The position numbers and the translations under genes are program-made. Positions 6,680-25,105 of a DNA stretch of 64,000 nt are shown piece by piece; position 1 is the first letter of the stretch, and every line of letters starts with the position of its first letter. Location of the stretch: NCBI GenBank assembly GCA_019752015.1, contig JAIEMQ010000030.1, forward strand, positions 1-64,000, given 5' to 3'. Under the pieces are notes generated by a model. It worked only from the letters and a program-made list of their open reading frames with translations. It was not told the origin of the DNA and searched no databases. This stretch comes from Cyanobacteriota bacterium. GTDB lineage: Bacteria > Acidobacteriota > Vicinamibacteria > Vicinamibacterales > UBA2999.

Positions 6680-7726
6680 TTAAGGAACCGGGTTGAGAAA
6701 CGGGTTGATGCTGTGCGGAGCAGCGTCCCCCCTCTGTTCCTCCATGCGACGTCCTCGACGGCGCATCCGGGGACGGCTCACCAGAAGAGGGGAGAGATGC
6801 TCGTACGTGTGCGGCAGGACCACACATTCGATCGTCGCGCGACCCGACGCGAGGGCGTCAGGAATGGCGGGCGGGACCTGTTCGAAGGCGGCCTCATCTT
6901 CGGTCAGCCATCGTCTGTAGAGGTGGGTGAATCGCGGCCCTCCGAACACGTCCGCACACCGTTTGAGAAAGGCGCGAAGCGCCTCCGGGATCGTGCTCAG
7001 ATCGGTGCCTCGCCGTCGGTGAAAGAAGTAGCGCTTGAGGTCGTAGATCGCGGCGGCCTGAAGCGGGCTCTCGAGCTCCTCGTGGACCACGGCGCGATAG
7101 GCCTCCATGCCGCGGCGCAGCGGTTGTGGAAACACGATCCGGATGGTCCACGACGAGGCCATCCGAAGCAGCGCCGTGTGCCCGACGAGGAACGTTCGGA
7201 AGTCATCGGTCCAAGGCACGGTCGCGAGGTACAGGACCACGACGTGCCCGCTCGCATCAATCCCGATCGGAAAGGTCCCAGGAAACTGGTTAGCCTGCTC
7301 CGATGACTCCGACGCGGCCATCGTCTGGAGAAATGCAACCTTCTCAGATCTTGTGGCGAGCCAGTCGAGATCCGGACCCGTGAGGGCCGCGTCAAGCCGC
7401 ATCAGCCGCTCTGCCGCAGACCGTGCGGGCACGGCCCGACGGTAGCGGCCATCGGCCTCGCCGATCGCGTGGTACAGCGCTCGGTGCTGGACGTGGTAGA
7501 GCCTGGCGCGGTTGTGGATGCAGTCCGCCGTCACCGCAAAGCCACGCCGCACCAGCTTGTCGAAAAATGTGTTGCACCTGTCGCCGCCGTTGGCGATGCT
7601 CGCGAACGTGGCGTACTGCCGCTTGACACACAGACCGGCGTGCCGCATCACGAGTACGAGGAATCGCGCTTGGCGTTCGGTGAAGCCGTACTCGACCACG
7701 ATCTGGGCGCGTTCGGTGTCCGTCAT
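6680..7726 (-). CDS. Mobile-element cassette protein 2 (winged-helix, unknown function), copy 1
   Basis: The start at 7726 (MTDTERAQIV) forms an ATGA overlap with the stop of the upstream cassette gene, so the two are translationally coupled. Residues about 1-85 look like a winged-helix domain ('TERQARFLVLVMRHAGLCV' then 'FFDKLVRRGFAV'). The remainder, about 250 residues, includes 'HVVVLYLATVPWTDDFRTFL' and 'THLYRRWLTEDEAAFE', which I cannot assign. It resembles proteins that travel with replication-relaxation and conjugation genes in soil-bacterial genomes, a recollection that needs a database check. A second, frameshifted copy lies at 17935-19126 and aligns along the whole length. Confidence 0.7.
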   Translation of the reverse strand: MTDTERAQIVVEYGFTERQARFLVLVMRHAGLCVKRQYATFASIANGGDRCNTFFDKLVRRGFAVTADCIHNRARLYHVQHRALYHAIGEADGRYRRAVPARSAAERLMRLDAALTGPDLDWLATRSEKVAFLQTMAASESSEQANQFPGTFPIGIDASGHVVVLYLATVPWTDDFRTFLVGHTALLRMASSWTIRIVFPQPLRRGMEAYRAVVHEELESPLQAAAIYDLKRYFFHRRRGTDLSTIPEALRAFLKRCADVFGGPRFTHLYRRWLTEDEAAFEQVPPAIPDALASGRATIECVVLPHTYEHLSPLLVSRPRMRRRGRRMEEQRGDAAPHSINPFLNPVP

Positions 7727-8631
7727 TTCCACAACTCCTCGGCGAGGCCGCCGTGATGCCCACCGCCGCCTCCGCCGCCGCTGCCGCGCCCGCCAATGCG
7801 CAGGCTCGATCCGCCGTAACATGAGAAGCCAGACCGCGCCACGCTTGAGGCGTGGCCGCCGCGGTAGTGCTCCGTGGTCACTTCGATGTCGTCGTGATCC
7901 CAGCGGTCGTCGGCGTCCCGATACTCGATGCGCAGGTCAGGGAAGTGAACCTCCTCATCGAAGTACGGGAGGTCGTGTTCATCGGCCCACGCGCGGATTT
8001 CCTCGTCGGTCCGATCGGGGTGGCCGTCGTAATCCGGGCGGTCGTGATCCCGCTCGTGAAGCCAGGTCTGATACTCACGCTTGAGCTCGTGGTCGAGCAT
8101 GACGCGCTCGATCCGCCCGCCACGCTCGGCGAGGCGCTCCGCCGCACGTTCGTAAGCGCGATAGACCTGAAGGTCATGTTCGCGTTCCCGTTCGCGTCTA
8201 AGGCCATCCCAGAAGGTCTGACGGCCACCGTGGTCGCGGTCTCGATGACGTTCGAGGAGCTTGCGGCCCTCCTTCGTCAGCGCCACGGCGTGCTCACGTG
8301 ATCCGTGCACACGAGCCGTCTCAACCAGCCCTTGTTCGCGAAGGTGCCGCAGGTCGCTTGAGCGTGGATCGAGCGGCCGATCGTGTTGATCACGCAGATC
8401 ACGACTGGAGACCACTCGAAACGCTCCGACGGTTGCGAGCGTGCGCGTCTCGGAGCCGCGCAACGTGTATTCACGATCGCGGTCTCGTACGATTTCGCGC
8501 TCCAGACCGCGCGGCAGGTCGAGATCACGCGTGAACGGCTCGCGCGAGTCGAAGGCGCGATCGGGCGGCTCGCGATCCGACCAGCGCGGCTCGTCCCGCG
8601 CATCAAGATCACGAGGGTCGAAATCCATATC
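7723..8631 (-). CDS. Mobile-element cassette protein 1 (Asp/Arg-rich, winged-helix), copy 1
   Basis: A 302-residue protein starting 'MDFDPRDLDARDEP'; an upstream in-frame extension covers the tRNA-derived repeat and is rejected. It has four parts. First is an Asp/Arg-rich N-terminus, followed by 'REYTLRGSETRTLATVGAFR'. Then comes a winged-helix segment ('LRHLREQGLVETARV', 'LTKEGRKLLERH') and a coiled region. The C-terminal domain contains 'FPDLRIEY' and 'DIEVTTEHYRG', with the spacing of acidic residues one might expect in a PD-(D/E)xK or replication-relaxation fold. The tail is Gly/His-rich. Copy 2 at 19117-19977 is highly similar. The function is unknown; a DNA-processing role in element transfer or replication is inference. 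Confidence 0.72.
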   Translation of the reverse strand, partial: DMDFDPRDLDARDEPRWSDREPPDRAFDSREPFTRDLDLPRGLEREIVRDRDREYTLRGSETRTLATVGAFRVVSSRDLRDQHDRPLDPRSSDLRHLREQGLVETARVHGSREHAVALTKEGRKLLERHRDRDHGGRQTFWDGLRREREREHDLQVYRAYERAAERLAERGGRIERVMLDHELKREYQTWLHERDHDRPDYDGHPDRTDEEIRAWADEHDLPYFDEEVHFPDLRIEYRDADDRWDHDDIEVTTEHYRGGHASSVARSGFSCYGGSSLRIGGRGSGGGGGGGHHGGLAEELWK

Positions 8632-8648
8632 TCTGTTCTTGACCTGGT

Positions 8649-8824
8649 TGGCTGACAAATGGCTGACAATCGGTCGCGGCTCGCAGTTTTCTGGGGTTGC
8701 CCCAAGCTGCGAATTTCCTGAGGAAAAGTCGGAGCAGTGGTTTCCCACTGCCCCCGGTTGCCTGGTTTGTTCCGCTTTGGGAGCGGAATGTCGCTGGTTC
8801 GAATCCAGTCGCCCCGACCACTTT
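8649..8824 (+). repeat. Attachment-site repeat, copy 1 (tRNA-Pro 3' half)
   Basis: This 176-bp sequence is repeated almost identically at 20624-20800. It begins with a tandem TGGCTGACAA motif (two copies in 22 bp) and continues with two small hairpins (GGGG/CCCC and GCAGTGG/CCACTGC). It ends in the 3' half of a tRNA gene at 8771-8820. Direct repeats ending at a tRNA 3' end are the hallmark of integrated elements that use tyrosine recombinases. TGGCTGACAA could be an arm-type integrase site. Confidence 0.85.
8771..8820 (+). tRNA. tRNA-Pro(UGG) 3'-half fragment (att core)
   Basis: The anticodon arm is TCCGC-TTTGGGA-GCGGA with a perfect 5-bp stem and anticodon TGG. It is followed by variable loop AATGT, a T arm with TTCGAAT loop, acceptor 3' strand CGCCCCG, discriminator A and CCA. 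No upstream sequence can pair with CGCCCCG, and no normal D arm is present. It is therefore a non-functional 3' fragment regenerated by integration, not a complete tRNA gene. Confidence 0.8.
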
Positions 8825-8926
8825 TTCGGAGATTTTTTGAAGTTCGGGCGCGCCGCCCATCCGAAAAGCTGCCGTCGGCTCACAAATGGCCATGATGTCG
8901 TTGCGGCACGCGGCTCATTTGGAACG

Positions 8927-9247
8927 TTAGGCACCTACACGAATGAGAGTCTTCGGCCTCAAAGCTTTCAGCGCTTCGAGCACTTGCGGTATCAGCGGCT
9001 CCACGGATTCCAGGCGATTGCTCTCGGCGATCAGCACGACGACTGCGACGGGGAGCGCGGCCAGATTCTGTTGGAATTCGATGTTGCGGTCGGCGGTCAG
9101 CACGACGTCAAACTTGCCGGCGGCTTGACGCAGCAGCACGCCGTTACTTAAGCTCGCCCAGGACTCGGCTTGCACAGTCGATACTTCATGGCCAGTCAGC
9201 GCCGAGCCAAGCGGGCGCGGCAGCGACTCATCGAGCAGGATGCGCAC
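8927..9247 (-). CDS. DUF5615 PIN-like toxin
   Basis: A 106-residue protein of the DUF5615 PIN-like (Mut7-C) group. It has 'MRILLDESLPRPL' with the first acidic catalytic residue (Asp at 6, Glu at 7) and 'DVVLTADRNIEFQQNL' with the second Asp cluster around residues 66-73. These positions match the metal-binding acidic residues of PIN nucleases. It overlaps the upstream DUF433 gene by 20 bp. The DUF433/DUF5615 pair is a recognised toxin-antitoxin arrangement. It is the first operon inside the left boundary of the island. Confidence 0.88.
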   Translation of the reverse strand: MRILLDESLPRPLGSALTGHEVSTVQAESWASLSNGVLLRQAAGKFDVVLTADRNIEFQQNLAALPVAVVVLIAESNRLESVEPLIPQVLEALKALRPKTLIRVGA

Positions 9248-9461
9248 GAGAGACTAAGAGGTTGGCGCCGATCTCCAACGCCGCGACGGCCTGTTCGCGC
9301 GTAACCGAGGGAAAGTGATCCAGGAAACGCTCGAGTGAATCACCAGCGGCCAGATAATCCACCAGGTTCTTGATTGGAACCCTAGTGCCGGCAAATACCG
9401 GCGTGCCGCCTAGAACGTCCGGATCGCACCGAACGACAGACTCGACAGTGGGCGTAGACAT
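9228..9461 (-). CDS. DUF433 antitoxin
   Basis: A 77-residue DUF433 protein. 'VRCDPDVLGGTPVFAGTRVP' (about residues 10-29) is the family signature, and the following helices ('LVDYLAAGDSLERFLDHFP', 'REQAVAALEIGANLL') form its helix-turn-helix-like fold. In known pairs this protein neutralises the DUF5615 nuclease and binds the operon promoter. Its gene precedes and overlaps the toxin gene, as expected. Confidence 0.9.
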   Translation of the reverse strand: MSTPTVESVVRCDPDVLGGTPVFAGTRVPIKNLVDYLAAGDSLERFLDHFPSVTREQAVAALEIGANLLVSRAHPAR

Positions 9462-9510
9462 ATCGAACCTTCTGGCTCATGCTACTCCCAATCGAGCTAC
9501 GGTGCCTATC

Positions 9511-10074
9511 ATGAAGCCGACGCGCTTCGCGGGGGGTTCATTCCGAGGCGTTCGGCGGACCTCCAGGAACGAATTGATCGAGATCCGAGACGAGCAGCGG
9601 GACGACGTCGACGCGGTTCGGGATGTGAATCGACAGGCCTTCGGTCACGAGCAAGAAGGTCGAATCATCGATGCGCTGCGTGAACGCGGCGGGGTGGTCC
9701 TGTCGCTCGTCGCCGTGACGAACGGCACAATTGTCGGCCATATCATGTTCAGCCCAGCGACCGTCGGGCCTGTGCTCGGGGCAGCGCTGGGGCCGATGGC
9801 GGTGGCCCCGGGCAATCAACGGAAAGGCATTGGCACCCAGCTCGTGGCCCGCGGAGTCGAACAGCTCCGAAACCGCGGTTGTCCATTTATCGTCGTCATC
9901 GGGCATCCAGCGTTCTATGCGCGGTTCGGGTTTCAGTCGGCGCCAGCGCAGGCATTGACGTGCGCATGGGATGTGCCCGCTGCGGCGTTCATGGTGAATG
10001 TGCTACACCCCGATAGTGCTGGTCGCCTGCAAGGCTCGGTCGAGTACCGCACGGAGTTCTCGACGGTTGAATAG
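9511..10074 (+). CDS. GNAT-family N-acetyltransferase
   Basis: A 187-residue acetyltransferase. The conserved acetyl-CoA site 'LGPMAVAPGNQRKGIGTQLV' (about residues 92-111) contains the Q/RxxGxG/A signature as QRKGIG. 'VVIGHPAFYARFGF' is typical of the subgroup that includes YhbS-like enzymes. Homology begins at 'IEIRDEQRDDVDAVR', so translation may start at TTG near 9573 instead of ATG at 9511. The substrate is unknown. It is convergent with the integrase remnant and appears to occupy the place where the rest of that gene would have been. Confidence 0.82.
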   Translation: MKPTRFAGGSFRGVRRTSRNELIEIRDEQRDDVDAVRDVNRQAFGHEQEGRIIDALRERGGVVLSLVAVTNGTIVGHIMFSPATVGPVLGAALGPMAVAPGNQRKGIGTQLVARGVEQLRNRGCPFIVVIGHPAFYARFGFQSAPAQALTCAWDVPAAAFMVNVLHPDSAGRLQGSVEYRTEFSTVE

Positions 10075-10100
10075 GCATCCGCCGCCGAACGAATTGCGGA

Positions 10101-10270
10101 TTCTGCTTCCTGTTTGGACATGACCGCTGCCTTTGCGCCGCGTGCAAACGCGAACGCGTTCACCGGCATACGGCATCGGCGGCCCTTGTGCATCACATCC
10201 AGCCCCATGGATGGCCGCAGCGCGGGCTCCTCTTGCAGCCCTTGCTGCGACATGGCTTTCGAACGGCCAT
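10101..10270 (-). pseudogene. Tyrosine integrase remnant (N-terminus only)
   Basis: ATG at 10270 follows a perfect AGGAGG ribosome site (10277-10282). It reads 'MAVRKPCRSKGCKRSPRCGH' and then hits a stop. The next frame, from about 10210, continues with 'LDVMHKGRRCRMPVNAFAFA' and 'SKQEAE'. Together they match, from memory, the Cys-rich N-terminal arm-binding region of phage-type integrases from soil bacteria. One missing G in the GGGG run near 10207 would join the frames. Similarity stops at about 10101, so the catalytic domain is deleted. It lies 18 bp downstream of the excisionase gene, the normal xis-int order. Confidence 0.65.
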
Positions 10271-10288
10271 ACGGGTCCTCCTTTCGGG

Positions 10289-10558
10289 TTACGAGGGTTT
10301 TGTTGGTGCGCCTCGACGGATCCAGTCGAGGACGTCTGTTGGATGGAACCTCCTTCCTCTGACGCCGAACCGTTGTGACACGAGCAACCCGCGCAGGTAC
10401 GCGCGGCGGACTGTCTCCTCGTGGCAGCCGACGAACTCGGCTACTTCGAACGCGGTCAGGAGATGATTCGGCAGTCCGTCAGTCGCCGGTCCGTTGCTCG
10501 CCGCCGGCTGTGCGGCTTCCGCAGTATGCGCCGATTCGGTGTAGATCGTCTTCCTCAT
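10289..10558 (-). CDS. Excisionase-type helix-turn-helix protein
   Basis: An 89-residue protein with a MerR-like/HTH_17 domain in its C-terminal 55 residues. 'LLTAFEVAEFVGCHEETVRR' is the helix-turn-helix, and 'RFGVRGRRFHPTDVLDWIRR' is the wing and final helix seen in excisionases. The first 30 residues are Ala/Thr-rich and probably disordered. It precedes the truncated integrase on the same strand with a short gap, so it was probably the directionality factor of this island. It looks intact although its integrase is not. Confidence 0.82.
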   Translation of the reverse strand: MRKTIYTESAHTAEAAQPAASNGPATDGLPNHLLTAFEVAEFVGCHEETVRRAYLRGLLVSQRFGVRGRRFHPTDVLDWIRRGAPTKPS

Positions 10559-11549
10559 CGGAATCCTCCAGACGTTTGCGGCATCGGACTCTCGTACGAC
10601 GCCTGGTTCTCGATTGACGAACCGAGTCGGAATGGTGCGACGGGAAGACGATCACTCGAGGCGATCGTCTCGCGTTGCGGACCCGGTGAGCGGGATTCAG
10701 AAGGCTGCGCGCAGCGCAACGCTCGAAATCAGCCGCCGTGCCGAAGGGCGATGCGTGGCGATGTGCGCGACGCATCGCGACTCCGGCGACCGTGGCGAGC
10801 GTCCTCTCTTAAGGGAGAAGTCGTCGGCAGCGGTTTAACAGGGAGGTTTCACCGGCCACGGTTGGTGCGCCTGTGAGCGGCGGGCAATGTACCGGCCGTC
10901 GTCAGATCGTGGGTCGCGTTTGCGAGCCGTCGATGGCGATATGGCGATCAACGCGTTCGGCTTGCGACCATTCCAACCGTTCCGATCTTGGGGCTTCGTG
11001 CGTTGACCCTGAGGGCAACGGCGTGAAGCACTCCACGTGGCCTGAGACGACGTGGAGGGGTGGCGACCCTTCGCCACAACAACGATACCTTGACGCTACG
11101 AGCGTTCGCGATTTCTGTCAAGCTCAAGCGATCGACTCTATCAATGTGAGTTCTAGGTGCATTGCCCTGTCTGGCTCGTACGTTCGGTGATAGGAGGCTG
11201 ATGATGCGGGACCGACAGCTTCGGATTGCCGCCTGAGACGAAGTTTCTACGATCGATATCGATTTTGTGATCGTTGTTGAACTCGCGCTTCCTGCTGGCA
11301 TTTCGGATAGTGACTGGCGAAAAGTTGCGACCCCTGGTGATTGGCAGAGTGACGGGTGATGCACCTGAAGCCGAACGTCCCGGTGTTCTGCTCATCCCTA
11401 AACGTTGCTCGTTGGTTTCCACTTGACCGACCGCCGGAGCGTGCTTGACTTTGCACCCTGCTTTGCGGCACTGTTGCCACCTCTCCTCCCACTGCCCCCT
11501 GACAAATCCCCCCACATCCACGCGCATGCGGAGCGTGTCAGGAGGGAGT
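10559..11549. other. Gene-free region upstream of the lasso locus and xis
   Basis: No ORF in this 990-bp stretch has recognisable motifs or convincing coding character. It lies between the minus-strand xis-int operon and the plus-strand lasso locus and so should contain both promoters. Small dyads are visible (CTCCACG/CGTGGAG around 11031-11056, GTGGCGA/TCGCCAC near 11061-11079). I cannot assign promoters with confidence. Confidence 0.5.
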
Positions 11550-11843
11550 ATGCCTCGCCGCCGACGCTTCTCGAATCCGTCGCTCCGTCAGGTTCACCTC
11601 CGCCTGACCGCGGCGGATTACGCATTTGTCCACCGTCTTGCGCGCTCGCGCGACGAGAGCGTGTCGCAATTCTTGCGACGTTTGATTCGCCGTTGGCGCG
11701 ATCGCGCTCGAGAAACTGGTACCGCCGCGGTACCGAAATTTGCGGACTCCGGCATCACCGGCGAAACTGCGGACTCGCCCCCGGAAAGGACTGCGGGCCA
11801 TCATGGCCGTAAAGACAGTACTCGCAACCGCGGCCGGCTCTGA
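11550..11843 (+). CDS. Basic ribbon-helix-helix-like protein
   Basis: A 97-residue protein starting 'MPRRRRFSNPSL'. 'RQVHLRLTAADYAFVHRLAR' followed by 'ESVSQFLRRLIRRWRDRARE' has the beta-strand, helix, helix layout of ribbon-helix-helix DNA-binding proteins such as CopG or MobC types. The last 35 residues are polar and probably disordered. The 3' end overlaps the start of the lasso B gene by 41 bp in another frame. The two are therefore likely coexpressed, and this protein may regulate the locus or belong to the transfer functions of the island. Neither role can be decided from sequence. Confidence 0.6.
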   Translation: MPRRRRFSNPSLRQVHLRLTAADYAFVHRLARSRDESVSQFLRRLIRRWRDRARETGTAAVPKFADSGITGETADSPPERTAGHHGRKDSTRNRGRL

Positions 11844-12558
11844 AGATCATCGGCGGTGGCAGCGTGGCGCCAGCGTGTTTGTGTGTAAGTACGACGGCGG
11901 CACCGCGCTGCTCTCGGTCAGGACAGGGAATTACTTCACGCTGAATGACGCTGGGAGCGCACTGTGGGCACGGCTCACTAGCGGACTGACCCTAGAGGAG
12001 GCCGCGCGTAGCCTCGCAGCCGATTACGAGATTTCTCTGGACGCCGCACGACACGACGCCGCCGAACTCCTCACACAACTGTTATCCAAAGCCTTGCTCG
12101 AACCGCGGGTTAATCGCCACAGCGACGCTGCCATGTCGGCTACCGCGCGGCAACGCCCGCTGTCGGCCACGGACACCCTGCGCGTACCATCGCTGCTTCG
12201 CACCTGGCTGACACTGATCAAGTTCCATGTCCTGCTGAAGGTAGGCCGTCTCACGCAGATTGCGGAACCGGGCCTCAATGTGACATCGAAGCGGTCGGCC
12301 ACGGTTCTCGATCCTGTATTGCGAGATGCACTGAATCGCCGCGTGCGCACGGCGGCGGCATGGTTGCCATTTCAAGTCGCTTGCCTTGCGCAAAGTCTGA
12401 CCGTCATCGACATTCTCCGTCGGCACGGCCTTGAAGCCACGCTGCGAGTCGGCATCTATCCCTACCCATTCTCGGCTCACGCGTGGGCGGAATGCGGTGG
12501 ACAACCAGTGAACGAGTTGCCGGAAGAACTGCTGCGCTATCGCGCGATTACGAGCTGA
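11803..12558 (+). CDS. Lasso peptide B1-B2 fusion protein (leader recognition plus leader peptidase)
   Basis: A 251-residue fusion of the two lasso maturation functions. Residues about 18-100 form a PqqD-like RiPP recognition element ('LLSVRTGNYFTLNDAGSALW', 'LTLEEAARSLAADYEI') that binds the precursor leader. Residues about 140-250 form the transglutaminase-like B2 protease, with the catalytic Cys in 'FQVACLAQSLTVIDILRRHG' and the His in 'PFSAHAWAECGGQPVNE'. It cleaves the leader using ATP-driven coupling with the cyclase. It is followed 15 bp later by the cyclase gene with an ideal ribosome site. Fused B proteins are typical of proteobacterial-type loci. Confidence 0.88.
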   Translation: MAVKTVLATAAGSEDHRRWQRGASVFVCKYDGGTALLSVRTGNYFTLNDAGSALWARLTSGLTLEEAARSLAADYEISLDAARHDAAELLTQLLSKALLEPRVNRHSDAAMSATARQRPLSATDTLRVPSLLRTWLTLIKFHVLLKVGRLTQIAEPGLNVTSKRSATVLDPVLRDALNRRVRTAAAWLPFQVACLAQSLTVIDILRRHGLEATLRVGIYPYPFSAHAWAECGGQPVNELPEELLRYRAITS

Positions 12559-12573
12559 ATCTGGAGGTCGCAC

Positions 12574-14389
12574 GTGTTTCTCGTGTTTGCTGCCGCCGAT
12601 CCGCGCACCGTGACGGCATTCCTGCATGATTGGCGAACTACGCACCCCGCCTGGTCGGAGGCGTGGCGCGCCCCGTGCAGCGTCAGCTTCGTGAACGATG
12701 GCTCGGCGGTCGCACACGTTCCTCAGCTGGCGATGTCGGCAGCGGGAACCGTGCGATTACGACGAATCGCCCGACGCAATGCGGCCACGCCGTTCGATCA
12801 CCTCGGAGCCGCCTTCGATGCCGCCCGGAAATCACGCCGTCCAGGACCTCGACGGGTGCTTTTCGTTCGCGGTACTCGATCGAAACGCCGGGTCGCTTCT
12901 CGCTTTCCGCGACCATTGCGGCCTGGCGGCGTTGTATTGGGCCGAGAAACACGATGGGATTCTAATTTCCGACTCATTGCAGGTGTTCGAACGCAATGCC
13001 GGGTTTGAACACCACACCATCGCTGAATTCATAGCCACCGGCCGGGTCGGCGTGCGCTCCACGATCTGGCATGGCGTCCAACAAGTTCCTCCTGCTTGCG
13101 CATTGGGCTGGCAAGACGGACGTCACACGGTCGAACGTTTCTTCCAGTGGACGTCCGGCGTCGTCGGCGCTTCGATGGCCAGTGATGAAGCGGCGAACGA
13201 ATGCCGCCGCCTGATGTTCGACGCGGTTGATGCAGAGATGGATCAGGGGTCGAGCACTTGGGCGGATCTTTCTGGAGGCCACGATTCGTCATCGGTGGCG
13301 TCGATTGCGGGTGCCCTCAGCCGACAACAGTCGTACCGGCGGCTCGGAGGCACCGTCACGTTCGTGGATTCGCTCGGTGAAGGCGACGAGACGGCGTTCG
13401 CGAAAACGGTAGTCGATCAGTACCAACTCGATTGGATTCGCGTCCACAACCCGTGGCCATGGCAAGAGGACGGACTTCCGCCTCCGGAGACGGACAGTCC
13501 GACACGCGATTACCCATACTGGGCTCGTGACCGCGCCGTCATGCGGGAACTCGCGGCCAGAGGCGGGACAAACGTCATGAGCGGAGCTGGCCCAGACTAT
13601 TACTTGCCGCTGACGGCCACGCATGCGCTCGACCGCGCCTCTAAATACCGATTCGGTGAAGCGGCAGCCATCATCCACGAATGGACGGTACAGAATCGGA
13701 CCACGTTCAGTCATGTCGTGCCGAGGGAGCTGCTCCTTCCGCTCCTACCAACATGCGTGCAATCAGCCGTGCTCCGGCGTCGCGTCAAGATCCCGCGATG
13801 GATCCGGCAGGACTTCTCCGCGCGTCGCACATTTGTCGATGCACAAGTTGCACGCGATGTAATTCACGGATGGCCCGGTTCGTTGAGCGCTGAACGCGCC
13901 GGTCAGCGGCTGAGCGAGCTTGGTTCGGCGCTCGAAGGCTGGCGCAAGACCGCGGGCCTCGAAGTGCGCCATCCGTTGCTGTCGGTGCCGCTGGTGCAGT
14001 TCTGTCTGGCGTTGGATCACCGATTGCGAACGAATTACCGTCGGCCGAAACCCGTCCTTCGGTTCGCAATGCGGGGCATCGTGCCTGCGACAGTGCTCGA
14101 GCGCGTTACCAAGGGATCGCTGGTCTTGCCTCGCGTCTGTTGGGCGCTGAACTTCGAACGACAACGTATTGCCGCGATGGCGCGCAATTCCGTGCTCGCC
14201 GACCTGGGAGTCATCGAACCGCGAAGGTTGTTGACCTCGGTGGATGCTTGCGCCAGTGGTCTGGACACCGCGCGTCACGTGTACTTCGCGCTCAGCCTCG
14301 AGACCTGGCTGTCCGTCAAGGCCGGGAGGGGCGACGCATTTGCCGCGGCGGTAGAGGTTCCCCCTTTTATGAAAGGAAGTAACCCATGA
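12574..14389 (+). CDS. Lasso peptide cyclase (asparagine synthetase homologue), frame interrupted
   Basis: ATP-dependent macrolactam synthetase that would join the core N-terminus to an Asp or Glu side chain. GTG at 12574 has a GGAGG ribosome site with 6-nt spacing and opens a frame beginning 'MFLVFAAADPRTVTAFLHDW'. From about 12827 the homologous sequence continues in another frame: 'GNHAVQDLDGCFSFAVLD', an amidotransferase-like segment. The PP-loop follows in 'WADLSGGHDSSSVASIAGAL', and the synthetase domain runs to the stop at 14389. Removing one C from the CCC run at 12824-12826 restores a single frame ('FDAA' joined to 'GNHAV'). It is either a recent mutation or a sequencing error. If the break is real, the gene could still start internally at 12698 but would lack part of its N-terminal domain. 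Confidence 0.85.
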
Positions 14390-14553
14390 TGAAGAAGAAT
14401 GTGACTCCAGAACCGTCGAAGACCCCGAAACTCCGCTACTCGAAGCCGGAAATTGTCGAACGGGGTTCTGTTGCTGAGCGCACGCTGAATTCCGAGTCGG
14501 GTGCTGATCCGGAAGGACTCGAAGACAACATCGTGTGGGTAACTGAGATCTAA
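14386..14553 (+). CDS. Lasso peptide precursor
   Basis: A 55-residue precursor whose ATG overlaps the cyclase stop (ATGA). Leader residues 1-34 contain 'LRYSKPEIVERG', that is Y18-x-x-P21-x-I23, the motif bound by B1, plus a conserved Gly at 27. They end in Thr33-Leu34, with Thr at the penultimate leader position as in almost all lasso leaders. The predicted core is 21 residues, starting Asn-Ser-Glu-Ser-Gly-Ala-Asp-Pro-Glu and ending '...NIVWVTEI'. Ring closure to Glu at core position 9 (or Asp 7) is possible; position 8 is Pro. Asn at position 1 is unusual. The leader resembles the 'YSKPSL' leader of the Firmicutes lasso peptide paeninodin (from memory). Confidence 0.85.
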   Translation: MMKKNVTPEPSKTPKLRYSKPEIVERGSVAERTLNSESGADPEGLEDNIVWVTEI

Positions 14554-14589
14554 CCTGCGGGGACACCTCGTCCCCGCAGGCTCCTTTTT
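14554..14589 (+). terminator. Rho-independent terminator after the lasso precursor
   Basis: Perfect 10-bp arms CCTGCGGGGA (14554-14563) and TCCCCGCAGG (14571-14580) with a 7-nt loop are followed by CTCCTTTTTG. The hairpin begins immediately after the precursor stop codon. It should end or strongly attenuate the B-C-A transcript and protect the precursor mRNA 3' end, leaving the permease downstream to read-through or its own promoter. Confidence 0.9.
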
Positions 14590-14655
14590 GTGCAGCGGCG
14601 TCTTGACTGTCGGGGATGGGCGCGCGTAGCCTCCGGGGTATCAGCGCGAGGTGCC

Positions 14656-17079
14656 ATGATCACTCCAACGTTTACTCTCGCAATGCGGCAGTTGACCAGC
14701 TCGGTCGTCTCGACCATGTTCATCGTCGTGTCACTGTCTATCGCGATCGGCGCCGTCGCCGGTTCGTACGGATTACTCGACGCGGTCGTGTGGCGACGGC
14801 TTGGCGTTCGAGAGCCGGAACAGCTGGTCACGATCGCGCCGATGACAGGCGAGGCTGTGCTCGGCATGTCCGGGGCAACAGTGGCAGCACTGGGCAAGGC
14901 GCAAACGTCGTTTGAAGGACTATGCGGGTTTTCTCGCGGCGCTATGCCGGTCGAGATCGCGTCTACGATTTCGCGCCGGGGTATGGAAGCTGTGAGCGGT
15001 GACTGCTATGACGTGCTTGGCGTCGGACCACACCTCGGACGCCTCATCGGGCCGGCTGACGCACCGCTGTCTGGCAACTCGGCAGCAGTCGTCGTCATCA
15101 GCCACGCACTATGGACGAATGCGCTGGGCGCAGACGCTGAAATCATCGGCCGGACTCTGCGCGTCGAGGGGGTCGATCTCTCGATCATCGGCGTCCTGCC
15201 GGCATCGTTCATGGGCCTCCACGTCGATCAAGGGCCCGACATCGTCTTGCCACTCGGTTTGGTGTCGTCGCTGCTGGGTAACAAGCCGCCGCGAGTCACT
15301 GCATTGTATGCCGTCGGCCGCCTTAAACAGCATGTCTCGCTGCAACAAGCGCGAGCGGAACTGCGGAATCTGTGGCCGGCGATATGGAGCGCCGCGAACC
15401 CATCGACCGTCGCCAATGCGCGGGTCTCTCCAGCCGCAGACCCGGCATCTCTGCGAATTGAAAGCGGCGCCGGAGGGATCTCCGATCTGCGGCGGCAGTA
15501 CGCCACGGCGCTGTATGCGGTGCTCGCCCTAGCTGCGTCCCTCCTGCTGATGGCGGGCGTCAACATCGCCGGCCTGCTGATCGCGCACAACATGAAACGG
15601 ATCGCGAGCTTCAAGATGCTGACGGCCCTCGGTGCGAACAGCGTCGCGATCGTCGGGCAGCTGATCACCGAGGCGTTCATGCTCGGTGTGATGTGCGCGG
15701 CGGGAGCGGTAGCCGTCGCGTGGACGGTCGGCTCGGTTGCAGCGGCTCGCGTATGGGTCGGTTTCCTGCCGATGACGATGGCGGTGACTCCGCAACCGGC
15801 ATTATTGAGCGCGACCGCGGCGTTCGCGGTGGTCGTGATGCTCATCCTGACCATCCCCGCGGCGGCGCTCGTATTGAACCACACGTCGAGTCAGTCCGCA
15901 GGAATCCGCAGCCCGGTGAACTGGACGTGGTGGCGGCGCAGCATCGTCGCCGCGCAAGCAGCCGTCGCGCTCGCGATCGTGTTCTGTGCGTCGCTGATCA
16001 CAAAGAATTTGATCGGCCTGCGCGAGATTGATCCCGGCTATGCAGTCTCGAGACTCTCGTTCAACCGACTCGAACGGCTCCCGGGACAGACCGCTGATTG
16101 GGATCGATCCGCGTACGTCGCGCAACTCCTCGACCGCATCCAGGGATTGCCCGGAATCGAAGGAGCGGCTCTGTCGAGCTCGTTTCCGACGACGGATCTC
16201 AGGCAGCTGACCTCGCTACTGAAGATCAGCAGTGCTGCCGGCGCATTCGTGAACGGCCGGGAATTTCGCGCGAGCCCCCGGTTCTTCGACACGATTCAAG
16301 TGGCGCTGCGCAGCGGTCGTGATTTCGCCTTCGACGACACCGCCGGCCGACCGCCGGTGGGCATCATCACCGAAACGCTCGCGCGTGAACTATTCGGCAA
16401 CACGGATGCTCTCGGTCAAACCATCGCCGTTGGGTCGCCTGACCGTCAGGTCACGGTAATCGGTGTCGTATCGGATTTCAGCCCAGGCGACGTACGCATC
16501 ACGAACCTGCCCGCCGTATATTCACCGCTCTTGCAGGCGCCGCAACAGCTTACTAGTCCGATGCTAGTTATCCGCTCCGGCAGTGCGCAGAACGATGCGA
16601 TCCGCCGCGCCGTCCGCGAGCAGAACAGACATTACGTCAGTTTCTCGCGCTCCGTAGCGGAACATCTGTCAACGCTCATCGCACGGGAGAGGATCTTGTT
16701 CGCGTTCGCGCTCTTGTTTGGTGTGGTCAGTATCGCAATTGGCGGAACCGGTCTGTTCGCAGCGCTTAGCTACGCCGTCGCGTCGCGGAACAAAGAGCTC
16801 GCCGTCAGACTTGCCGTCGGCGCGCAACGGCGGCAGATTCTCTGGACGGTCACGAGGGAGGCCGCGATCGCGGTCGGCGTTGGCATCGCACTCGGCGCAC
16901 CGCTTGCGGTCGCCGCGGCACGCGGCGGCGAGGAGCTGCTGTTCAGTCTGTCAGCAGTTGATTGGCCGCTGCTGATGACTTGCGCAGGTGCCATGGCGTT
17001 CATCGCCGGCGCCGCGGCGGTTTGGCCCGCGCTCTCAGCGACGCGAGTCGATCCAGTAGTGACGCTCAGAGACCTATAG
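14656..17079 (+). CDS. Orphan duplicated FtsX/MacB-type permease (ADOP-like)
   Basis: An 807-residue inner-membrane protein with the layout of the acidobacterial duplicated orphan permeases. It has an N-terminal anchor ('STMFIVVSLSIAIGAVAGSY'), a MacB-like periplasmic domain, and a first FtsX domain with three or four helices (around residues 285-440). A second MacB-like periplasmic domain follows, then a second FtsX domain at the C-terminus ('LAVRLAVGAQRRQILWTVTR'). No ATPase gene is adjacent, as is usual for this family. Translation from ATG 14656 is chosen because residues before it are not hydrophobic. Its place right after the lasso genes suggests a role in export or immunity, but that is inference; most members have no known substrate. 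Confidence 0.85.
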   Translation: MITPTFTLAMRQLTSSVVSTMFIVVSLSIAIGAVAGSYGLLDAVVWRRLGVREPEQLVTIAPMTGEAVLGMSGATVAALGKAQTSFEGLCGFSRGAMPVEIASTISRRGMEAVSGDCYDVLGVGPHLGRLIGPADAPLSGNSAAVVVISHALWTNALGADAEIIGRTLRVEGVDLSIIGVLPASFMGLHVDQGPDIVLPLGLVSSLLGNKPPRVTALYAVGRLKQHVSLQQARAELRNLWPAIWSAANPSTVANARVSPAADPASLRIESGAGGISDLRRQYATALYAVLALAASLLLMAGVNIAGLLIAHNMKRIASFKMLTALGANSVAIVGQLITEAFMLGVMCAAGAVAVAWTVGSVAAARVWVGFLPMTMAVTPQPALLSATAAFAVVVMLILTIPAAALVLNHTSSQSAGIRSPVNWTWWRRSIVAAQAAVALAIVFCASLITKNLIGLREIDPGYAVSRLSFNRLERLPGQTADWDRSAYVAQLLDRIQGLPGIEGAALSSSFPTTDLRQLTSLLKISSAAGAFVNGREFRASPRFFDTIQVALRSGRDFAFDDTAGRPPVGIITETLARELFGNTDALGQTIAVGSPDRQVTVIGVVSDFSPGDVRITNLPAVYSPLLQAPQQLTSPMLVIRSGSAQNDAIRRAVREQNRHYVSFSRSVAEHLSTLIARERILFAFALLFGVVSIAIGGTGLFAALSYAVASRNKELAVRLAVGAQRRQILWTVTREAAIAVGVGIALGAPLAVAAARGGEELLFSLSAVDWPLLMTCAGAMAFIAGAAAVWPALSATRVDPVVTLRDL

Positions 17080-17344
17080 GCTTCTTTCCTCGCACCTCCG
17101 GTTGACGGATCTTTACAACGACCTAATCCGATCACGTTTCCTGGTCACGCAAGCGGCCAATATCTTCTCGCTGGAGGTTGCTCCGATCAATGCAGCTAGG
17201 CGAGCGCGCGCAGGGCGTGTCAAGGGCGCGGCTCACCGAACATCCGCAGCGGCGAAGCGGACCCTCCTATGAGGGCTGTTGCTGTCAAGCGATTCGGCCC
17301 GATTTGAACACACGTTTCCTGTCGCTCCGCCAAGTGCAAAAATC

Positions 17345-17425
17345 ACGAGCGCGCGGAGCGCGGGTCAAGACCGCGCCAGCGGCGAGCAGAGCTCGCGGAG
17401 TCTTGACCCGCGTGAGCACGCTCGT
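17345..17425. repeat. Palindrome, GGGTCAAGA core
   Basis: Arms 17345-17370 and 17401-17425 pair with a few mismatches. The outside reads ACGAGCG and the inside GCGGGTCAAGA. It is the fourth member of the GTCAAGR palindrome type seen at 2949, 5385 and 6188. Confidence 0.75.
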
Positions 17426-17785
17426 ATGCTCGCCGGCGCGGAGCGACCAGAGTCTGATTCGTGGGCCAGCGGCCGTCTTGCCGTGAGCTGGGCGCCGCAT
17501 CACTAGGTGCGGCCTCGCAATCGCGCATGTCCGAGAGTGACTTTGTCAGTTGCGCGAAATCAACCGGCGCCGCAGCCGTTATGAATGGGCGGATACACGG
17601 TCGCAAATGCCGGCATCAGAACCAGTTTGTCCCCGCGCATGCCACGCAACATGTACGCGATCGTGCACATGCACATGCGCGCGATCACGGACGCGTTTTG
17701 CTCGCTCAAAACGCGCATATCTTCCGCCGCCATAGCCAGGATTCACGCCACGGCCGCCCGCTTTGACCGCACGAGCTTGGACGCT

Positions 17786-17868
17786 CGGAACCGAGACGTG
17801 AACGACCCCGAAGGGGCGCGGGGCCGCCTTTGCGCGCCGGAGCCGGGGTCGTTCACGTCTCGGTTCCG
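17786..17868. repeat. 25-bp perfect inverted repeat, GTGAACGACCCC core
   Basis: Arms 17786-17810 and 17844-17868 are exact reverse complements over 25 bp, starting CGGAACCGAGAC and containing GTGAACGACCCC. The spacer is 33 bp. The core is shared with the palindrome at 2626-2713; the flanks are different. Confidence 0.88.
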
Positions 17869-17896
17869 CATCTACGCTGACGGGACCCGCTTGCGT

Positions 17897-17917
17897 GGGC
17901 GGCACAGGACGCCGCCC
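17897..17917 (-). terminator. Hairpin downstream of cassette copy 2
   Basis: GGGCGGC and GCCGCCC (7-bp perfect arms, 7-nt loop) lie just downstream of the minus-strand cassette copy 2. The counterpart at 6547-6569 follows copy 1. Retention next to both copies argues that it belongs to the cassette unit and may end its transcript. Confidence 0.5.
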
Positions 17918-17934
17918 CTCTGCTGTCGCGCGGC

Positions 17935-19126
17935 TCACGGCTCAAGTCCCAGAGCTTTCTGCTGGTTGTACCAGTCATTGAGGCGGTGCCAATCGCGCGC
18001 ACACCCCGCCGGATCGTGAGGGTCGTAATCGGCGACCGGGGGTTGAGAACGTGGGTTAAGGACGTGCGGCGGCTTCATCCCCCTCTTCGTCTGCGTTGTT
18101 AACTCGGCCTTCTGTCGCCGGCGTATCGAGCGCGATGGGTCAACCAAGGGTAAGAGATGACGATAGCTGTGCGGCAGCGCAAGCGGCTGGACCTCCGCAT
18201 TCCCGGTGGCCAAGGCGTCTCTCATGGCCGTCGACAGCACCGACTCAAACGCCGCGTCGCCGTGCCGGAGCCAGCGGCGGTAGAGCAGCTGGAACCGCTC
18301 CCCATGGAACATGTCCGAGCCAACGTCGACAGGGTCGTACGTCCGATCTGAACGGTCATTGCATCGAGCGCGGCGACGGTCCAACTGCGCCTTGAGCTCG
18401 GCAATCGTTGCCGGCTGGAGAGGCGTCTTGAGCTCCTCGCCGATGACTCCTTCGTAGCTCCCGGACCAGCGGTCATTCGGCTGCACGAACACGAGCCGAA
18501 GTGTCCACGCCGGCAACAATCGCAATAGCGTCGCGTGCTCTTGGAGAAACCGCCGGAAGTCGGCGGTCCAGGGCGCGGTCACGACGTAGAGCAGCACCAG
18601 ACGACCTGATGGATCGAGGCCCATCGGAAAGCTGCTGGCAGCTACCGCTCGAGCGGTCGACGTAAGCGTCTGCGACGATGCTGCGCAGGTGCCGCTGGTG
18701 GCTCCGGATCCGCCCAAGGTCAACACGTATGCGGCCTTCTCGCGTCGGGTCGTGATCCAGTTGAGATCGGGGCCGGCGAGCACGGCATCCACCCGCATGA
18801 GCCGCTCGATTGCGACTCGCGGTGCTACCGACCGCCGATACGTGCTGTTCGGTTCGCCAATCGCGTAGTAGAGCCTTCGAGTGGATGTGAAAGACACGCG
18901 CTCGGTTGTGCACGCACTTGATGACGGTCGCGTACCCGCGCTTGATCAGCTTGGCGAAGAATCGATTGGACTTCGCCCCGCCGTGCGCCACGCCCGCGAA
19001 GCTCGCGTACTGCCGCGGAACGCAGACGCCGGCGTGCCGCATCGCCAGCACGAGGAAGCGCGCTTCGCGCTCCGTGAAGCGGAAGTTCATGACCGCGCGG
19101 ACTCGATCTTCGGCTGTCAGTACCAC
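17935..19126 (-). pseudogene. Mobile-element cassette protein 2, copy 2 (frameshifted)
   Basis: This gene is homologous to the protein at 6680-7726 over its whole length. GTG at 19126 opens 'MVLTAEDRVRAVMNFRFTER', a winged-helix segment that runs to 'HNRARVFHIHSKALL'. From about 18880 the homologous sequence continues in another frame, 'RLYYAIGEPNSTYRRSV', to the stop at 17935. A net shift of one extra base or two missing bases around 18870-18885 explains it. The C-terminus is about 40 residues longer than in copy 1. It overlaps the upstream cassette gene by 10 bp. Real inactivation and sequencing error are both possible. Confidence 0.75.
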
Positions 19127-19977
19127 AACTCCTCCGCATAGTCCGGGTCGAACGGCACACCGCCAACGCGGGTGCTCGACCCTCGAAATCCCTTGAATCC
19201 TGACCGCGCCACGCTCGCCGCGTGAGCGCCGCGGTAGTGCTGCGTGATGACCTCGACGTCCACGTGATCCAGCCGGCCATCCAGCTCGTATTCGATACGA
19301 AGGTCCGGGATATGGACCTGATCGTCGAAGTAGGGCAGGTCGTGCTCGTAAGCCCAGTCGCGGATCTCCTCGGGAGTGCGGTCTGGGTGGCCGTCGTAGT
19401 TGTCGCGATCCCGATCGCGCTCGTGCAGCCAGCGCTGGTAATCGCTCTTGAGCTGATAGTCGAGGATGACGCGCTCGATGCGCGCGTGCTCGTCGCGCAG
19501 CCGGTCCACCTCACGTTCGTAGGCGCGATAGACCTGGATGTCGTGCTCCAGCTCCCGCTCGCGTCTAAGGCCTGCGTAGAAGGTCTGGCGGCCGTCCCGG
19601 AAGCGGTGGCTCTCCAGAAGGCCGCGCCCTTCCTTCGTCAGGACGACGGCACGCTCGCGGGTGCCGGGTACGCGAACGGTCTCGACCAGACCCTGCTCGC
19701 GCAGGTGCCGGAGGCCACTCGAACGTGGGTCGAGCTCGCGATCACGTGAATCGCGGAGGTCACGACTGGAGACCACCCGGAAGGCTCCGACCGTGGCCAG
19801 CGTCCGCGATTCAGAGCCGCGCAGCGTGTACTCGCGATCCCGGTCTCGGACGATCTCACGTTCCAGGCCAAGGGGCAGATCCACGTCACGCGTGAATACC
19901 TCGCGCGGGTCGAAGTCGCGGTCGAGGCCGTAGCGATCGTCATTGCGTGAATCGACGTCGCGAGGGTCGAAATCCAT
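19117..19977 (-). CDS. Mobile-element cassette protein 1, copy 2
   Basis: A 286-residue paralogue of the protein at 7723-8631. It starts 'MDFDPRDVDSRNDD', shares 'REYTLRGSESRTLATVGAFR', the winged-helix 'LRHLREQGLVETVRV' and the 'IPDLRIEY' segment, and ends in 'YAEELWY' without the Gly/His-rich stretch of copy 1. The Asp/Arg-rich N-terminus, about 50 residues, is probably disordered. Conservation of an intact frame while its partner gene is broken may mean it acts alone, or that the partner's frameshift is artefactual. The function is unknown. Confidence 0.72.
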   Translation of the reverse strand: MDFDPRDVDSRNDDRYGLDRDFDPREVFTRDVDLPLGLEREIVRDRDREYTLRGSESRTLATVGAFRVVSSRDLRDSRDRELDPRSSGLRHLREQGLVETVRVPGTRERAVVLTKEGRGLLESHRFRDGRQTFYAGLRRERELEHDIQVYRAYEREVDRLRDEHARIERVILDYQLKSDYQRWLHERDRDRDNYDGHPDRTPEEIRDWAYEHDLPYFDDQVHIPDLRIEYELDGRLDHVDVEVITQHYRGAHAASVARSGFKGFRGSSTRVGGVPFDPDYAEELWY

Positions 19978-20102
19978 AGATCTACCGTCCTACCTGTTCG
20001 GCGTTAGAATGTCCGTATGTACGTCGGGCTGACGACACTGCGTCTTCGCCATGGAATCGCGAGTCGGTCGCTGTCTGGTCGTTGAGGTGTTACGCTGTCC
20101 CC

Positions 20103-20342
20103 ATGGATGCCAAACAGCTACTGGCTGAAGCCCTTCGGCTCTCTGACGAGGAGCGAGCCGCACTCGCTGGTGAACTGATTCAGAGTCTCGAACGCGAGGT
20201 CGACGCGGACGCGGAAGCGGCATGGTCTGCGGAGATTCGCGCGCGTCTCGACCGAGTCGACGCCGGCAACGCCACGACCATTGCCTGGTCCGAAGCACGT
20301 CGCCGCATTCATGCGGCAGCCGGCCGTGGCTCGCGCACTTGA
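20103..20342 (+). CDS. Addiction-module antitoxin (short helical type)
   Basis: A 79-residue protein, 'MDAKQLLAEALRLSDEERAA', followed by 'LAGELIQSLEREVDADAEAAW'. This is the pattern of the short 'addiction module protein' family that pairs with RelE/ParE toxins: a helical DxxxLLxxALxLxxxERxxLAxxLxxSL repeat followed by Trp and 'EIRARLDRVDAG'. It precedes the toxin gene with an overlap and lies on the plus strand at the right end of the island. Confidence 0.88.
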   Translation: MDAKQLLAEALRLSDEERAALAGELIQSLEREVDADAEAAWSAEIRARLDRVDAGNATTIAWSEARRRIHAAAGRGSRT

Positions 20343-20622
20343 ATACCTCGAAGAAGCTCTCCAAGAGGCGGAACGCGCCGCGCATTGGTACGCAGAGCGC
20401 AGCGCGACGGCTGCGGCAGCATTCAGCGAAGAAATGGATGCAGCCGAATCGGCGATTGCTCGTCTGCCTGAAGCATGGCCTCGGTACGAGCACCGAACGC
20501 GGCGCTACCTGCTCCGACGATTTCCGTTCAGCGTCGTCTACCGAGTGGAGGAGCCTCGCGTCTTGATCGTCGCTGTCGCGCACGCTCGACGACGACCGGG
20601 GTACTGGAAGTCGCGAGGCTAG
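20311..20622 (+). CDS. RelE/ParE-family toxin
   Basis: A RelE/ParE superfamily toxin of about 103 residues. It has 'ALEYLEEALQEAERAAHWYA', the family's N-terminal helices, 'RRYLLRRFPFSVVYRVEEPR' with the conserved basic strand and Y/F-x-x-hydrophobic core, and the C-terminal 'VLIVAVAHARRRPGYW', where His-x-R-R-x-P-x-Y-W is diagnostic. The start is uncertain: ATG 20311 or GTG 20326 both overlap the antitoxin. The stop codon is 1 bp from the right-hand attachment repeat, so the toxin-antitoxin unit is the terminal cargo and may stabilise the island. Confidence 0.9.
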   Translation: MRQPAVARALEYLEEALQEAERAAHWYAERSATAAAAFSEEMDAAESAIARLPEAWPRYEHRTRRYLLRRFPFSVVYRVEEPRVLIVAVAHARRRPGYWKSRG

Positions 20623-20623
20623 A

Positions 20624-20800
20624 TGGCTGACAAATGGCTGACAATTGGTCGCGGCTCGCAGTTTTCTGGGGTTGCCCCAAGTTGCGAATTTCCTGAGGAA
20701 AAAGTAGGAGCAGTGGTTTCCCACTGCCCCCGGTTGCCTGGTTTGTTCCGCTTTGGGAGCGGAATGTCGCTGGTTCGAATCCAGTCGCCCCGACCACTTT
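20624..20800 (+). repeat. Attachment-site repeat, copy 2 (island right end)
   Basis: This 177-bp direct repeat of 8649-8824 differs by a few substitutions and one extra A. It contains the same tandem TGGCTGACAA, the two hairpins, and the tRNA-Pro 3' half at 20747-20796. The backbone aminopeptidase gene ends 13 bp further right, so this is the junction with the chromosome. Confidence 0.85.
20747..20796 (+). tRNA. tRNA-Pro(UGG) 3'-half fragment (att core, right end)
   Basis: Identical to the fragment at 8771-8820: the anticodon stem TCCGC/GCGGA with loop TTTGGGA, T loop TTCGAAT, and CGCCCCG-A-CCA end. There is no 5' acceptor strand or D arm in front of it. It marks the distal end of tandem integration at a tRNA-Pro gene that must lie elsewhere. 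Confidence 0.8.
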
Positions 20801-24892: not shown

Positions 24893-25009
24893 GGGGGCGA
24901 GGACGTTTTATCCAGAGTGGCGGAGGGACCGGGCCCGATGATGCCACAGCAACCTGGCCGCTCGCCGAGGGCTTCGGCGGGCAGGCCACAGGTGCTAATT
25001 CCCGCCCCC
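24893..25009 (+). ncRNA. SAM-I (S-box) riboswitch
   Basis: The conserved core is unmistakable: ATCCAGAG, then GGAGGGAC, GGGCCCGATGA, GCAACC, and further on GGTGCTAATTCC. These are the P2 kink-turn, the junction and the SAM-binding strands of the S-box aptamer. GGGGGCG (24893-24899) and CGCCCCC (25003-25009) may form the closing stem, so the boundaries are approximate. Downstream, GGTCCCC (25046-25052) can pair with GGGGACC (25073-25079), a stem without a following T-tract that ends close to the GGGGAG ribosome site. The control may therefore be at translation. Genes behind it make homoserine and cystathionine or homocysteine, which fits repression by SAM. Confidence 0.9.
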
Positions 25010-25105
25010 ACCTACGCTCGTGCACATGGCGTGCGAGCTACGGTGGGTCCCCCGTAGCGGCTTCGCCGCAAAGGGGACCGTCAAGGGGAGAGATGAGATG
25101 CGGAC

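Follow-up and report, generated by a model that had tools for sequence, protein, structure and literature searches.

A probably inactivated lasso peptide locus with ordinary gene order on a defective tRNA-Pro island of an acidobacterial genome

The lasso peptide genes

The stretch of DNA analysed here, which we call the window, comprises 64,000 nucleotides (positions 1 to 64,000, forward strand) of contig JAIEMQ010000030.1 in GenBank assembly GCA_019752015.1, filed under Cyanobacteriota bacterium and placed by GTDB in the Acidobacteriota (Vicinamibacteria; Vicinamibacterales; UBA2999). On its forward strand lie the consecutive genes of a lasso peptide locus: B (11803–12558), a PqqD/RRE domain fused to a leader peptidase; C (12574–14389), an Asn-synthetase-like cyclase with a frame change near 12.8 kb; and the precursor gene A (14386–14553). 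An intrinsic-terminator-like hairpin and a permease gene follow, and the whole group is bracketed by two repeats of the 3′ end of a tRNA-Pro(TGG) gene.

The assignment to lasso biosynthesis, first made from the sequence of the window alone (the original prediction), is upheld by B, by the motifs of the precursor and by the closest relative of C, which stands in the same B-C-A order. The product of B scored 72.4 bits against the NCBIfam profile lasso_biosyn_B2 (NF033537; cut-off 33) and contains both a PqqD domain (51.2 bits) and a Transglut_core3 domain (78.6 bits), as expected for the PqqD–transglutaminase fusion that had been proposed. Its N-terminal half, the RRE, resembles the lasso B1 proteins TbiB1 (PDB 5v1u) and TfuB1 (PDB 6jx3), although these stand alone, whereas the RRE of B is fused to the peptidase. 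Among 77 aligned B2 sequences, the catalytic Cys is common to 76 and the His to all 77, and both are present in B; at the presumed acid position, where the alignment is uncertain, B has Glu, as do 13 of the 77, while 28 have Asp and 29 have Gly. The operon may start one gene upstream of B, at a small open reading frame (ORF; 11550–11843, forward strand) that overlaps the start of B and matches RHH_1 weakly (18.4 bits, below the Pfam cut-off of 20.5).

C appears to be frameshifted near 12.8 kb. In a codon-usage scan trained on 79 genes from the same genome, the coding signal follows the frame opening at 12574 until approximately 12.75–12.8 kb and the frame 12698–14389 after approximately 12.81 kb. 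The latter frame, open for 563 codons, holds the synthetase part with its Asn_synthase domain (82.3 bits), and the GATase_7 match of C lacks everything before position 67 of the 123-position model. The Asn-synthetase-like cyclase of the original prediction can be recognized by its domain, but it does not read as one open frame, and C appears not to be intact. Programmed frameshifting was considered and judged unlikely, as no stop codon inside the overlap ends the first frame and so compels a shift, and a +1 shift would be required, not the usual −1.

The best match to C in a scan of public genomes, which may exclude the window's own genome, lies on JACDBQ010000042.1 and is 27% identical; apparently, this is the same locus (L035; G006:C837) that gave the one further C match reaching E ≤ 1e-30 in 193 genomes of the class, up to seven candidates being scored in each. 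The L035 locus resembles that of the window in its B-C-A order and in the SGGxDSS motif of C, and its C, the closest found, adjoins a precursor in which Thr(−2) and Leu(−1) precede Asn1, with Glu at core position 9. It differs in that C occupies one open frame, on a 5.5-kb contig without an ADOP permease or a recognized island gene.

The precursor A itself was found as originally described, a small ORF with YxxPxI and Thr(−2), and its ATG overlaps the stop codon of C (ATGA). Its product, of 55 residues, carries YSKPEIVERGSVAERTL-NSESGADPEGLEDNIVWVTEI, the leader containing YSKPEI and meeting the predicted 21-residue core (N1 to E9 and beyond) at RTL-NSESGADPE; Glu occupies core position 9. The leader scored 17.5 bits (E 0.003) against lasso_leader_L3, slightly under the cut-off of 19. 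A regular expression for the leader motif with a suitable tail, composed after the A ORF had been seen, occurs once in the 64-kb window, at A, and gave one match in 460,622 bp of control DNA against 26 in 1,124,043 bp of lasso loci. Since the junctions of L035 (...GNVVRETL-NGTNPLKSEN...) and of the window (...GSVAERTL-NSESGADPEG...) share Thr −2, Leu −1, Asn 1 and Glu 9, a nine-residue ring from Asn1 to Glu9 is the likeliest prediction for the window core, with Asp7 as an alternative ring residue. From what is known of the family, the RRE part of B would bind the YxxPxI leader, the transglutaminase-like part would cleave behind Leu(−1), the residue next to Thr(−2), and C would adenylate Glu9 and close the nine-residue ring onto Asn1 around the tail.

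The island at tRNA-Pro(TGG)

The lasso genes lie between two forward-strand repeats of 54 nucleotides, at 8771–8824 and 20747–20800, of which 8771–8820 and 20747–20796, respectively, correspond to the last 50 nucleotides of tRNA-Pro(TGG). Approximately 125 nucleotides upstream of each are also repeated, giving longer repeats at 8644–8824 and 20619–20800. ARAGORN found no tRNA gene in the window. The left repeat is 98% identical over 54 nucleotides to positions 2430–2483 of contig C80 of the same genome, where an intact tRNA-Pro(TGG) (c2434–2510) is separated by approximately 115 bp from an ORF of 467 codons that encodes a Phage_integrase domain. In a genome of the same genus (G082, contig C23), orthologues of the M1-peptidase gene that lies to the right of the window island and of a C80 gene (one of four C80 genes tested) are found within approximately 8 kb together with tRNA-Pro(TGG), as an unoccupied site; the gap between the M1-peptidase gene and the tRNA is 1.3 kb there and a few bases in the window. 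Because this one site holds all three, C80 and C30 very likely flank a single array that is unjoined in the assembly.

Islands integrated at tRNA genes by a tyrosine integrase carry repeats of the tRNA 3′ end, use the tRNA as target and have their integrase beside the intact tRNA. The window island is like them in its repeats and target, and in the integrase beside the intact tRNA on C80; it is unlike them in having a marker pair of two module genes, which we call WH and MOD2, and no complete integrase in its own copy. A tRNA island had been claimed from the outset, and the repeats bracketing 12 kb and the unoccupied site in G082 bear this out, but the tRNA gene itself is missing from the window.

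Two genes of the element itself look damaged in the window. The integrase is reduced to a reverse-strand remnant of its N-terminal 60 or so residues (10095–10270), which matches the C80 integrase in two tblastn pieces (95% over 22 residues and 60% over 50 residues; DNA identity 88.9% over 377 bp). The reverse-strand MOD2 gene (17938–19126) is frameshifted near 18.88 kb, being found as two tblastn pieces in different frames, as judged against MOD2 (6683–7726) of the neighbouring element. WH (19117–19977, reverse strand) is open and has a winged-helix match below the cut-off.

The island carries several further genes. At its left end lie a DUF5615/DUF433 toxin–antitoxin-like pair (8930–9461, reverse strand; 33.8 and 68.5 bits, over the Pfam cut-offs), a GNAT acetyltransferase (9370–10074, forward strand; Acetyltransf_1, 47.1 bits), which, from comparison with C80, seems to occupy the place expected for the body of the integrase, and an HTH_17 protein (10289–10558, reverse strand; 31.5 bits, cut-off 27), excisionase-like by position. 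At the right end lies an Unstab_antitox/ParE toxin–antitoxin pair (20082–20622, forward strand; 46.7 and 39.5 bits, over the Pfam cut-offs); the two toxin–antitoxin-like pairs thus sit near the two ends of the island. Between the permease gene and MOD2 there is a perfect 25-nucleotide inverted repeat (17786–17868, arms 33 nucleotides apart). The G+C content of the island is not distinctive (62.7%, compared with 64.8% to its right). To the left, the right end of another element of the same family occupies 6683–8824 on the reverse strand, with MOD2 (6683–7726) and WH (7726–8628) as open frames and 87% DNA identity over 2,251 bp to an island on contig C52. Outside these elements, the window has an S-adenosylmethionine riboswitch (RF00162, 53 bits) at 24905–25032.

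Relic or working cluster

We read the B-C-A operon, perhaps headed by the RHH-like gene, as cargo of a 12-kb tRNA-Pro island (8825–20800), and the copy in the window as probably a decaying relic; we put the probability of this reading at roughly 0.68. Given the frameshifts in C and MOD2 and the truncation of the integrase, the island has most likely lost both its independent mobility and the ability to make a mature peptide, and the two toxin–antitoxin-like pairs could hold it in place. The suggestion that the locus can spread is accordingly doubtful for the window copy. Poor sequence is the less favoured explanation of these lesions, because three fall within 12 kb, compared with internal stops in none of the 68 ADOP rows and one of the 109 rows of matches to the window permease in this genome, some of them partial. 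Loss of function is nevertheless something we infer for this copy.

The alternative that survives best is that the cluster works, and that the frame change in C is either a sequencing or assembly error or is bypassed by an internal start, giving a working protein whose N-terminal domain lacks its first half. The catalytic Cys and His of B, the motif-bearing A and the long open synthetase frame are all as a working cluster would have them, and with these parts otherwise intact the shift of frame could have arisen recently, come from misassembly or be overcome by an internal start. We nonetheless consider a working cluster unlikely, given that the change of frame is visible in codon usage, that two further lesions lie in the same island and that the genome's ADOP genes give little sign of such errors.

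Besides the otherwise intact state of B, of A and of the synthetase frame, several other observations weigh against a decayed operon on an island of this kind. The codon signal across C is modest, and some reverse-strand windows score equally high (5.1 and 5.9). The first-frame segment of C showed no significant similarity to other C N-termini (local score 26, against a shuffled mean of 25.8; reached by 451 of 1000 shuffles), so that the split of C is judged from its position, from codon usage and from the truncation of the profile matches. At the target site, only one of the two relatives fetched has tRNA-Pro beside the M1-peptidase gene, contig C47 of G080 having no tRNA there, and among 11 M1 loci, that of the window included, G082 is the only one with tRNA-Pro nearby. 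Finally, two lasso operons of this genome adjoin an ADOP gene on the same strand, for which the rough chance is 0.006–0.014, a post hoc figure that assumes 5,200 genes.

The terminator and the neighbouring permease

Directly 3′ of A, on the forward strand, a hairpin followed by a T-run (14554–14580) has the form of an intrinsic terminator, as had been noted. It has 11 pairs and a folding energy of −25.4 kcal/mol (z −3.2), a value reached in 2 of 200 shuffles, and lies in a region with four terminator-like sites compared with 5.1 in shuffles. Behind it, at 14656–17079 on the forward strand, lies the gene for an ADOP-like permease without an ATPase. The original description of this protein as ADOP-type was borne out in so far as the match to TIGR03434 extends over nearly the whole model (positions 7–801 of 803), but the score of 489.9 bits is below the family cut-off of 622.3; like the ADOP permeases of that family, the protein is of full-length MacB/FtsX type and has no ATPase.

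It had been proposed that this permease stands where an ABC exporter would be expected, and that it serves export or immunity. No ORF of the window has both Walker A and signature motifs by regular expression, so the optional exporter gene D was not found; in the 75 lasso loci assembled for comparison (see below), only eight have such an ORF by the same means, and an ABC exporter is therefore usually missing from loci of this kind. That the permease is a dedicated lasso exporter or immunity protein, replacing the ABC exporter and drawing its ATPase from elsewhere, seems to us quite improbable. Its adjacency to the operon on the same strand, the chance estimate already given for the two adjacent ADOPs of this genome, the arrangement of another island (contig C1), in which an ADOP and a GMC oxidoreductase separate two lasso operons that share a strand, and an ADOP 49 bp upstream of B2 in a locus of another genome (L019) speak for such a role. 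Against it, the terminator separates A from the permease gene, the ADOPs of the window and the C1 island are only 25% identical with many lasso-unlinked paralogues closer, and the contig with the closest relative of C has no ADOP at all. The genome has at least 68 ADOP matches (67 of 168 candidates scored), and 109 matches to the window permease, fragments included. Nor is the permease conserved beside lasso genes: ADOP occurs in 6 of the 75 loci, and the lasso neighbourhoods of other genomes hold five ADOP ORFs in 1,029,943 bp, or 4.9 per Mb, compared with 11.5 per Mb in the host genome, these densities coming from different searches and the comparison being with the host genome rather than the other genomes' own density. 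ADOP matches also occur in 6 of 20 WH loci of other genomes without lasso genes, so an ADOP near such an island is unsurprising. On the strength of the count, the density and the paralogue comparison, we reject ADOP as a conserved lasso partner, and regard the downstream permease as most likely an unrelated neighbour of the operon.

That B and C belong instead to another pathway for ribosomally synthesized and post-translationally modified peptides or macrolactams (with an albusnodin/ikarugamycin-type cyclase, or related to that for pyrroloquinoline quinone) is hardly credible, for while C scored nearly equally against macrolact_Ik_Al, eps_aminotran_1, lass_lactam_cya and asn_synth_AEB, below the cut-off for each, B exceeds the lasso B2 cut-off and has an RRE like the lasso B1 structures, the precursor has the lasso leader pattern, and the nearest related locus follows the same logic.

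Gene order compared with other lasso loci

A B2 search of the host's order gave matches over the cut-off in 61 of 162 genomes, with 77 places listed, five of them in this genome and two of the 77 scoring below the cut-off. All 72 foreign places (those in other genomes) were taken with up to 9.9 kb on each side, many being cut by contig ends, and together with the window and two further loci of this genome (L008 and L009) they make up the 75 lasso loci. A C profile match was found in 45 of these, and precursor-like ORFs near B2 or C in 34 (42 ORFs), the remaining 41 not being scorable. All three genes (A, B2 and C) share a strand in 28 of these 34; the other six lack B2 or C on that strand. A is last in 15 of the 28, the window included, first in five, and between C and B2 in eight, counting L009, with its two A-last operons, once and including in the last class one locus (L084) that looks spurious. 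Of the loci in the host's order that could be scored, more thus have B-C-A than any other arrangement. The count of gene order covers these 75 loci; from 80 loci of the public genome scan, the table of matches alone was used.

Lasso clusters are numerous in Acidobacteriota, according to the portion of PMC8692599 that bears on them, and two published acidobacterial clusters, BGC 482.1 and BGC 44.1, have the order B1-B2-C-A by their authors' gene numbers, as given in the relevant part of PMC9064862. From the same part of that article, they resemble the window in having A last, in best BLAST hits that are acidobacterial and in coming from soil, and differ from it in that B1 and B2 are separate genes, with an ABC transporter pair in 44.1 and a kinase in 482.1; no island is mentioned there. 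The count of 15 in 28 and these two clusters, so far as that part of the source describes them, rule out B-C-A as an unusual order, although the late position of the precursor had at first been taken as exceptional.

The WH-MOD2 islands and their lasso cargo

Least expected was the confinement of the genome's lasso B2 genes, so far as found, to a single island family. WH gave eight matches at seven places, and all five B2 genes lie on three WH-bearing islands, those of the window, contig C1 and contig C75; a crude estimate puts the probability of such a placement of three sites at random at approximately 1e-5 to 3e-5. The C1 island (90535–114751, 24 kb) lies at tRNA-Leu(GAG) with a perfect 59-bp repeat, and within it L009 (G000:C1:94000-113900) contains two split-B lasso operons and three precursor-like ORFs, the GMC oxidoreductase and ADOP lying between the operons. 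The C75 island, at tRNA-Leu(TAA) with an integrase, is cut by the contig end, and no C was seen in the part up to that end. In L008 (127–4336) on this contig, a lasso-type B fusion adjoins a precursor-like ORF that lacks YxxP, and another B fusion lies directly 5′ of the gene for a B12-binding radical SAM protein. That precursor-like ORF (946–1098), which has no YxxP leader and no NCBIfam match, shares the tail DNIVW with A, the leaders being different. On contig C52 (L121, 8452–13968), a 5.5-kb element with perfect 46-bp tRNA-Arg(CCG) repeats has WH and MOD2, and no match to the integrase queries used.

Across the order, WH was matched in 62 of 162 genomes, in some of them weakly. A sample of 20 foreign WH loci, chosen among the better matches and not at random, has MOD2 beside WH in all 20, an integrase match in 11 and a tRNA in seven; a clear tRNA repeat (40 nucleotides, 97.5%) was found in one, L249, at tRNA-Lys. 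Neither B2 nor C was found in any of the 20, and on this sample we reject WH elements as general lasso carriers. When the tables were compared by eye, no foreign WH lay within 12 kb of a B2 gene on the same contig, many contigs being short, and the nearest pair (G008:C12) was approximately 34 kb apart. Conversely, the 72 foreign lasso loci have an ARAGORN tRNA in five cases, an integrase match in one and WH in none, and the idea that lasso loci in general reside on such islands was dropped. Lasso cargo on WH-MOD2 islands is thus a feature of this lineage, and the 20 foreign WH loci do not extend it to the element family as a whole.

The module proteins matched little else. WH had no Pfam match over the cut-off and the MOD2 proteins scanned had none; comparison of both with PHROGs, PADLOC and NCBIfam gave nothing significant, AlphaFold models (mean predicted local distance difference test score 48.0 for WH and 39.8 for MOD2) were too poor for fold searches, and scans of viral contigs with B and WH led nowhere. 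Neither WH-MOD2 islands nor lasso operons carried by them are described in the parts of the literature covered, although such a description may exist elsewhere. We propose, tentatively, that these are undescribed acidobacterial tRNA elements which in this lineage serve as lasso carriers, at least four different sets of lasso genes having possibly been picked up separately into three islands; the element family is apparently widespread among acidobacteria. If this proposal is true, the whole lasso repertoire of the genome would be mobile cargo, adjacent to ADOP in two of the islands.

Overall, the lasso locus of the window is genuine, has a common arrangement of genes and is probably inactivated, and the tRNA island that carries it, likewise genuine, is defective. 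The cluster as such is unremarkable, and its setting matters more. All of the B2 genes found in this genome occupy a single type of tRNA island, one common in the order, which makes its lasso peptides look more like cargo that can be exchanged than like a stable trait, and the WH-MOD2 pair provides a marker for finding such islands and their other cargo.

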